Assembly (NCBI RefSeq): GCF_030534335.1
Contig: NZ_CP130565.1
Span: 1,695,501-1,759,500 of the forward strand
Origin: Marivirga harenae
GTDB taxonomy: Bacteria > Bacteroidota > Bacteroidia > Cytophagales > Cyclobacteriaceae
DNA: 64,000 nucleotides
Reading direction: 5' to 3'
Positions 28,067 to 30,848 of this stretch are shown here, piece by piece (the stretch's first letter is position 1; each line of letters starts with the position of its first letter). The position numbers and the translations under genes are program-made. The notes under the pieces are model-generated. The model was not told the DNA's origin, searched no databases, and saw only the letters and a list, made by a program, of their open reading frames with translations.

Positions 28067-28567
28067 TTAGCTAATTGCCTTCAGTGCCTGTTCATAATCA
28101 GGTTCATTACCAATCTCTGGAACTAACTCAGTGTAAATTACTTCTCCTTGCGGATTTACAACCACAACCGCTCTTGCATTTAAGCCCTTAAATCCGCCAT
28201 CGAGCAATTCAACTCCATAATCCTTGCCGAAGCTCTCATTTCTAAAATTTGAAACTGGAATTGCATTTTCAATTCCTTCTGCACCACAGAATCTTGCCTG
28301 AGCAAATGGTAGATCTTTTGAAATACACAGAACTACAGTATTGTTTAAAGAAGCAGCTCTTTCATTAAATTCTCGAACAGAAGTAGCGCAAACACCTGTG
28401 TCAACACTAGGAAAAATATTTAGGATCAAATTTTTGCCTTTGTAATCTGCAAGTGAAACTTCAGACATATCGGTTTTAACCAATTTGAAATCAGGTGCCT
28501 TTTGACCTTTGGAGGGTAAATCTGCTACTGTATTTGAAGGGTTTCCACCCAATGTTACCTTTGCCAT
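28067..28567 (-). CDS. tpx: Thiol peroxidase
   Basis: Tpx is an atypical 2-Cys peroxiredoxin that reduces hydroperoxides with thioredoxin. The peroxidatic cysteine is in FPSVDTGVCATS and the resolving cysteine in ARFCGAEG. The frame extends to 28582, but the ATG at 28567 gives MAKVTLGGNP, the standard Tpx N-terminus, and 166 residues, the usual length. Confidence 0.95.
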   Translation of the reverse strand: MAKVTLGGNPSNTVADLPSKGQKAPDFKLVKTDMSEVSLADYKGKNLILNIFPSVDTGVCATSVREFNERAASLNNTVVLCISKDLPFAQARFCGAEGIENAIPVSNFRNESFGKDYGVELLDGGFKGLNARAVVVVNPQGEVIYTELVPEIGNEPDYEQALKAIS

Positions 28568-28648
28568 ATTATTTTTTTTCATTTAGTTTACCTTTGCTAA
28601 ACTTGAATTAGTTAGAATAGTTACTGGTTTTTGATAAAGATTATAAAA

Positions 28649-29192: not shown

Positions 29193-29218
29193 AAAAGGGA
29201 TTTACTAATCCCTTTTTC
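29193..29218. terminator. Bidirectional hairpin terminator
   Basis: AAAAGGGATT pairs with AATCCCTTTT around a short loop. It lies between the DUF1543 gene and the end of the convergent MetS-like gene. Confidence 0.75.
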
Positions 29219-29232
29219 TAATTCTCGTTTAT

Positions 29233-29343
29233 TTACTTTTCCTTTTCTTTATCCATGCTTAAGGCTTTAAACAAAAATATTAAAAATCCTCCGACTGTTA
29301 TGGTAAGGCATACTACCATTCCTATTATTGCTTCCGTGCTCAT
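29233..29343 (-). CDS. metS: MetS family NSS transporter small subunit
   Basis: This 36-residue ORF, MSTEAIIGMVVCLTITVGGF and onward, is one membrane helix followed by a charged tail (SMDKEKEK). Its ATG overlaps the TGA of the NSS transporter in an ATGA junction, so translation is coupled. MetS in Corynebacterium is a small membrane protein required with the NSS-type methionine/alanine transporter MetP. Size, topology and position all agree. The identification rests on these features rather than on long sequence similarity. Confidence 0.8.
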   Translation of the reverse strand: MSTEAIIGMVVCLTITVGGFLIFLFKALSMDKEKEK

Positions 29344-30848
29344 TTTTTAACAAATTTTTTGTAAAACCATCCATTAAATACTATTGCTATTAATAATGCA
29401 ATTCCCCACTGCGTAACAATCGTTGCATTACTATATATATCCATCACATTCCAATTTCCATTTTCGTCAAACCACGGATACTCACTGTAGCCTTGGCTCA
29501 TCCACCAATAAACAAGGAACAAGCCTGCCACAAAGTTGAAATAAATCATTCCTGTGAAATAGATTGGAGAAACTTTGAAATCTGAATTTTGATCAATGAA
29601 ATCTCGCTTGAATTTTGCTGGTCCGTATCTAATGATTAGGAAAGAAATAAAAATACCACTCACTAATAAACCGACTCCCCATACCCAATCTTGATTTTCG
29701 AAAACGGACAAAAACCAGGCGGATGGAAAACCAATAACAAAACAAGCTGCACCTGCGATAATGGCTGCTTGCTTTTTGGATAAACTATAATCAGTCAAAT
29801 TCTTTATGATTAATTGCATCATCGGCAGTATCGAACTAAATGCAGCCATAGCAAAGGCTCCAAAGAAAATCCAGGAAAGAAATGGACCACCTGGCATCTG
29901 AGCAAACAATTGTGGCAAAATAGTAAAGACTAATGCGGTATTTCCATCATGTAAAAAGGCTACTGCTTCATCTGGAGTTGCAGCCATGGCAAATACTGCA
30001 GGTAAAATTGCCATTGCAGCTAATAAAGCAGCTGTATTATTTCCAAATGCCCCTAGAAATGTATTTAAAGTAACGTCTTCTTTCTGTCTAGAAAATGAAC
30101 CAATTGTGATCATTAAACCCCAGCCAGCACCTGTACTCCAAGCGGAATCGGTGATTGCCTCTATCCAAATAATGGGGTCTTTAAATTTCTCTACGTCAAT
30201 CGTAAATAAATATTCCAAACCTTGCGTTCCACCTGGCATTTGTATTGCGAAAGCGGCCACTACCATTAGTAGAATGAAAAGAGTAGGAATTAAAATCTTG
30301 TTTGTTTTCTCTAGTCCCTGCTTAATTCCTTTGCTAAGCACCCAGATTGCGATACTAATGGTAAACATATAGCACAGCACAGCTTGCCAGCTAGAATTAG
30401 ATAATCCTGCCCAAAATGTTTCCATGAAATTCACATTAGGATCTGCGAATTGCTCATTCATGGCTCCTGAACCAAAAATATAATCGATCAGGTTTTGGGT
30501 GTTTAAAATGAAATATCTTAAGGACCATCCTGTTACAACTGAATAGTAGAAAGCGATCCCCATCGTAACTATTGTCACGAAAACACCCATCCAATTGAAC
30601 TTCTTGCCACCAAGACTACCCAGTGCTCCTAGGGTACCCTTTTTGTAATGCTTACCAATAGCTAATTCTGCCATCAGTAATGGTATGGACCATACTACTA
30701 AAAATAACATCCAGAGAATGATAAAAGTACCTCCATGCTCTCCAGCTATTCTAGGAAACCGCCATAAGTTTCCTGCACCAATAGCCATTCCTAATGCAGC
30801 AAGAATTATTCCCCACCTATTACTAAACTCTTCTGTTTTTTGCGCCAT
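29340..30848 (-). CDS. Sodium-dependent neurotransmitter-symporter family (NSS) transporter
   Basis: The 502-residue protein is a LeuT-fold Na+-coupled amino-acid transporter with about twelve membrane helices. The N-terminus NRWGIILAALGMAIGAGNLW carries the conserved unwound TM1 segment with the sodium-site AIGAGNLWRFP. Substrates in this subfamily are typically amino acids. The stop codon overlaps the ATG of the 36-residue MetS-like gene, which supports a methionine/alanine-type pair. Confidence 0.92.
   Translation of the reverse strand: MAQKTEEFSNRWGIILAALGMAIGAGNLWRFPRIAGEHGGTFIILWMLFLVVWSIPLLMAELAIGKHYKKGTLGALGSLGGKKFNWMGVFVTIVTMGIAFYYSVVTGWSLRYFILNTQNLIDYIFGSGAMNEQFADPNVNFMETFWAGLSNSSWQAVLCYMFTISIAIWVLSKGIKQGLEKTNKILIPTLFILLMVVAAFAIQMPGGTQGLEYLFTIDVEKFKDPIIWIEAITDSAWSTGAGWGLMITIGSFSRQKEDVTLNTFLGAFGNNTAALLAAMAILPAVFAMAATPDEAVAFLHDGNTALVFTILPQLFAQMPGGPFLSWIFFGAFAMAAFSSILPMMQLIIKNLTDYSLSKKQAAIIAGAACFVIGFPSAWFLSVFENQDWVWGVGLLVSGIFISFLIIRYGPAKFKRDFIDQNSDFKVSPIYFTGMIYFNFVAGLFLVYWWMSQGYSEYPWFDENGNWNVMDIYSNATIVTQWGIALLIAIVFNGWFYKKFVKK

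Follow-up and report, generated by a model that had tools for sequence, protein, structure and literature searches.

The window analysed here, a stretch of 64,000 nucleotides from Marivirga harenae, carries on its minus strand a gene for a large transporter, followed directly by a small open reading frame that is read from 29343 to 29233 and has the sequence MSTEAIIGMVVCLTITVGGFLIFLFKALSMDKEKEK (Table 1). The two frames overlap, as the transporter gene ends at 29340 and its TGA stop codon shares bases with the ATG of the small frame. The small frame and the ATGA are common to all 10 congeners (G000–G009), and the overlap recurs in 29 of 36 linked pairs from Cytophagales and in 43 of the 73 drawn from several phyla, which bears out the coupled layout described in an earlier note on this DNA. 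Since a terminator-like stem lies 17 nt past the small gene, both genes probably belong to one transcription unit. The stem is the probable end of the two-gene transcript and, sitting between two converging genes, possibly acts in both directions. Two genes past the pair lies a thiol peroxidase-like gene (28067–28582, minus strand), whose function is read from sequence only.

Table 1. Positions of the features in the window
Feature	Position	Strand	Basis
MetS-like NSS small subunit gene, 36 codons and stop	29233..29343	-	ORF and translation; NF033493 26.4 bits against a cut-off of 25; purifying selection
ATGA in which stop and start codons overlap	29340..29343	-	sequence; same in 10/10 congeners
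NSS (SLC6-type) sodium symporter, 502 aa, 12 predicted TM helices	29340..30848	-	PF00209; predicted structure; LeuT fold
NSS codons 261–272, cytoplasmic half of TM7, candidate docking face	30033..30068	-	column correlation; docking putative
Terminator-like palindromic stem, 10 pairs, T-rich tail	29193..29216	-	17 nt 3' of small gene

The small frame is a real gene, as the earlier note had supposed. In an alignment of 18 Marivirga/Roseivirga sequences, 15, 9 and 29 columns vary at codon positions 1, 2 and 3, and the median dN/dS is 0.13 in frame as against 1.3 and 2.4 in the two shifted frames; this low in-frame ratio, together with the third-position variation, identifies the frame as coding. 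Its translation gives a single helix with a basic tail, a feature also seen in the charge pattern of the family and in agreement with the single helix and charged tail noted before. One might argue that a frame of just 36 codons, whose start lies inside the stop codon of the transporter gene, is a by-product of an overlap that merely couples or terminates translation of the transporter and yields a functionless peptide; start/stop overlaps are, after all, common in bacteria. We consider this extremely improbable, as the peptide is under strong purifying selection, is conserved in many phyla and in six genomes is retained by a gene standing on its own, and these unlinked copies, described below, already contradict it.

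When compared with profiles of small proteins, the gene product scores 26.4 bits (25.2 bits in the genome scan) on the NCBIfam model NF033493, 'MetS family NSS transporter small subunit', the curated cut-off of which is 25. The properties by which this family is described are also found, namely a gene adjoining that of an NSS transporter, here by ATGA overlap with a PF00209 protein, and a single-TM protein of about 30 residues with a short charged tail. The equivalog MetS model NF033494 (12.5 bits, cut-off 70) and Pfam PF16951 (15.8 bits, cut-off 26.2) are not reached. Because only the first of the three models is exceeded, the profile scores place the gene as a MetS-like small subunit of a named family, not as a canonical MetS of the Corynebacterium glutamicum type; the MetS-like label of the earlier note holds in this sense, but does not extend to MetS proper. 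As the match exceeds the cut-off, NCBI's own pipeline could name the gene, and the view that it is too short for standard ORF calling is not supported in that form, given that NCBI curates a model for such proteins. NF033493 is, however, at its limit in this group, where true relatives score between 19.5 and 34.5 bits and several (19.5–23.2 bits) fall below the cut-off. With our alignment model, applied per genome, true members were found at E <= 1e-12 and all else at E >= 0.003, a gap which shows that the family matches are not due to chance. This NSS small-subunit family of 30–40 residues is already named and little studied: in the open literature we found only citations of Trotschel et al. 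2008, and a PDB search returned no relative of the small protein and no MetS-like chain.

Sequence and structure prediction alike identify the large partner as an NSS/SLC6 symporter with a LeuT fold. It scores 168 bits on PF00209 (cut-off 27), and its predicted structure (pLDDT 88, pTM 0.88) has 12 TM helices and superimposes on LeuT (2q6h) with a TM-score of 0.83 and on MhsT with one of 0.78, both by query length; its best sequence match among known structures is 4us3 (MhsT). The Na1-site asparagines on TM1 and TM7, N27 and N270, are invariant in 32 orthologues. No small gene was found with the 11-helix NSS paralogue of the same genome (G000:C1:3152930), nor next to 11-helix NSS paralogues generally, and a second NSS of 37% identity (L217, L218) has no adjacent small gene either.

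Across phyla, the profile recovered the small frame at 73 of 74 linked NSS loci, with a GG/GS motif in the helix in 72 of these 73. Lysine and arginine are nearly absent from the first six residues of the linked small proteins, while the stretch after the helix holds about 3.6 of them. Because of this concentration behind the helix, the positive-inside rule predicts a topology with the N-terminus outside and the C-terminus inside. The taxa with a MetS-like partner include Bacteroidota, Calditrichota, KSB1, Synergistota, Acidobacteriota and others.

The two genes are also inherited together. Among 390 genomes of the order, scanned with thresholds of E <= 1e-70 for the NSS clade and E <= 1e-12 for the MetS-like gene, 34 have the 12-helix NSS clade and 23 the MetS-like gene, and all 23 are among the 34; the hypergeometric probability of this overlap is ~4e-29, a value that ignores the relatedness of the genomes. 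In 19 of the 23 the genes are linked, which supports the expectation of conservation beside NSS genes in Cytophagales and a MetP-MetS-like arrangement. In the remaining four (G085, G103, G183, G192) no small frame lies behind the NSS and the small gene is found elsewhere. Furthermore, in two genomes chosen for their stand-alone NSS (G028, G415), an unlinked MetS-like gene was predicted beforehand and then found in both. The six unlinked genes thus obtained lie in six different contexts, and whereas the assemblies of G183, G192 and G415 are fragmented, so that contamination is possible, those of G085 (2 contigs), G103 and G028 are near-complete. Hence, the MetS-like gene is kept even after separation from the transporter gene. 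In a phylum sample of 395 genomes, all 24 motif-bearing MetS-like genes adjoin an NSS of the 12-helix type. New here are this coinheritance with the 12-helix NSS clade only and the retention of the small gene when unlinked, together with the MetS-less lineage and the TM7 columns described below.

Loci L036, L041, L042, L046, L138 and L205 carry such free-standing MetS-like genes, each in a neighbourhood of its own and distant from every NSS gene, in genomes in which the NSS has no small gene linked to it. Weak matches to MetS at L364 and L365 come from genomes that lack the NSS clade; both are single-helix proteins of MetS size, but have no GG motif, and we set them aside as unrelated. The gene at L364 (3105 bases, match at 1501–1605, reversed) precedes that of an MscS-like channel.

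The transporter does not always come with its partner. In the order sample, the profile scan detected no MetS in 11 Cytophagales genomes that keep the NSS (G070, G099, G112, G125, G139, G153, G166, G178, G198, G233, G245), and many relatives in other phyla have a 12-helix NSS without detectable MetS. As the eight of the 11 included in the tree form one clade (support 85), a single loss in this lineage is possible. Since these genomes retain the NSS, the partner is not indispensable everywhere, and the earlier suggestion that the transporter needs a tiny partner does not apply in general. In Acidobacteria (L168, L175, L176, L178, L180, L198), a conserved gene starting near MYPEFFIAPMREELTRLGV lies 3' of a MetS-less 12-helix NSS.

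Altogether, we consider it highly probable, judging from sequence and gene order, that the small protein is a subunit of the 12-helix NSS amino-acid transporter whose gene lies immediately upstream, and that it spans the membrane once. Its synthesis would proceed by termination-reinitiation where the two frames overlap in ATGA; the protein would insert with its N-terminus outside and its basic C-terminus inside and, in most lineages, join the NSS as a partner that is either obligate or activating, as MetS does with MetP; in C. glutamicum MetS is reportedly required for transport by MetPS, a finding attributed to Trotschel et al. 2008. Alternatively, the small protein could be a chaperone-like factor for stability, assembly or membrane targeting of the transporter instead of a standing subunit that tunes transport. 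The same genomic evidence would fit, as a partner needed for biogenesis only would also co-occur with the transporter and tolerate unlinking of its gene. The conserved intramembrane GG(F) motif, the basic tail and the TM7 residues that track MetS nevertheless agree better with a lasting helix-helix contact, and we regard a purely chaperone-like role as improbable.

These TM7 residues emerged from a comparison of NSS proteins with and without MetS, comprising 192 sequences (79 MetS-positive, 113 MetS-negative) and 198 well-populated columns. In a first set, MetS-positive transporters conserved L261, F268 and D423, whereas two MetS-less clades, separate from each other, had lost them. As a test, a second set was fetched afterwards, comprising 104 loci (22 MetS-positive, 82 MetS-negative); here L261 was retained in 21 of 22 against 2 of 82 and F268 in 22 of 22 against 12 of 82. 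Over all 192 sequences, L261 occurs in 78/79 MetS-positive and 6/113 MetS-negative transporters and F268 in 76/79 and 15/113, ranking first and second of the 198 columns whether these are sorted by discrimination or by independent pairs. In the predicted structure, TM7 comprises residues 259–288, and L261 and F268 share one face of its cytoplasmic half, with two helical turns between them. Other markers were discarded: D423, at the start of TM11, was weakened in the second set, with 50/113 MetS-negative sequences keeping D or E, and column 264 (48/79 MetS-positive against 64/113 MetS-negative) tracks MetS in Cytophagales only. Nor were single-column scores accepted as sole proof, as small pseudo-clade controls give equal values.

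An association of this kind may also arise from the shared ancestry of transporter subclades, with the docking site elsewhere, e.g. on TM12, and we regard this as somewhat more probable than not. MetS status changed independently only a few times (at least 7), leaving 6 usable pairs, of which ~4 are informative; for columns 261 and 268 the 6 pairs comprise 3.8 of the same direction, 0 opposite and 2.2 ties. The resulting sign test is not significant (p = 0.125) and, with so few pairs, is unable to pass 0.05. In addition, some MetS-less transporters are exceptions, the single lineage of L277 and L305 keeping L261, F268 and S272 and L219 keeping most of these residues. On the other hand, both columns top the 198 under the ancestry-correcting pairing, without a single opposite pair, and are located two turns apart on the same helix. 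In view of the sign test, we treat the TM7 association as a lead, not as a result. L277 and L305 retain D423 as well, and represent either a recent loss or an unrecognised partner.

If the TM7 columns do mark a contact, the MetS helix may dock against the cytoplasmic half of TM7, the GG(F) notch, situated at about the depth of the L261/F268 face, being turned towards F268; we put this placement forward tentatively and as speculation. The position would coincide with the groove in which animal SLC6 transporters bind cholesterol (site 2), and a helix placed there could bias the conformation of the bundle (TM1/2/6/7). Bacterial membranes generally lack cholesterol, and by analogy the MetS-like helix might be its bacterial protein counterpart at the TM2/TM7/TM11 groove, binding TM7 near L261/F268, setting the conformational balance and being required even when its gene is unlinked; taken as a whole, this speculative scheme is rather unlikely. 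Aligning N270 with LeuT N286 and SERT N368, which are equivalent to each other (PMC2928745), makes F268 the counterpart of hSERT V366 and column 264 that of L362. In SERT, both L362 and V366 are among the residues reported for CHOL2, a cholesterol site in the groove of TM2, TM7 and TM11 (PMC13024735; also PMC6742698), and the bacterial homologue TuriSERT has a Phe at the V366 position, suggested to be a stand-in for cholesterol (PMC13024735).

In summary, the earlier interpretation was largely right, but of a kind already known, and the finding is mostly an ordinary one: an additional member of a known small-subunit family, to which this work adds copies that are unlinked and a proposed docking face that can be put to the test. 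Transporters of the NSS/SLC6 type serve as models of neurotransmitter uptake, and no PDB relative was found for the tiny subunits that accompany their relatives in bacteria. Our surveys reveal a widespread partner that is inherited along with one transporter type, though its gene can part from that of the transporter in the genome, and L261 and F268 are offered as two residues for mutation. If the groove idea were true, it would connect a bacterial peptide subunit with a site at which lipids are known to control human transporters.

Among known systems, the NF033493 family resembles the small protein in length, single helix, GG motif and place after an NSS gene, whereas the score of the latter is barely above the cut-off. 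To our knowledge, unlinked copies do not feature in the usual description of this family. MetPS of C. glutamicum, described as a two-subunit system in PMC3219685, which like PMC2807442 cites Trotschel et al. 2008 on MetPS, is likewise a two-gene NSS importer with a large and a tiny membrane subunit. It differs in that the small protein described here matches both models of canonical MetS only below their cut-offs and has 36 residues, as against the 53 and 60 positions of the MetS models. LeuT and MhsT share the fold of the transporter, although LeuT has no Phe at the position aligned with F268. Finally, CHOL2 of animal SLC6 transporters occupies the TM2/TM7/TM11 groove on the inner-leaflet side, with hSERT L362 and V366 in place of NSS residues 264 and 268, but holds a sterol where a peptide helix is proposed for the NSS described here.
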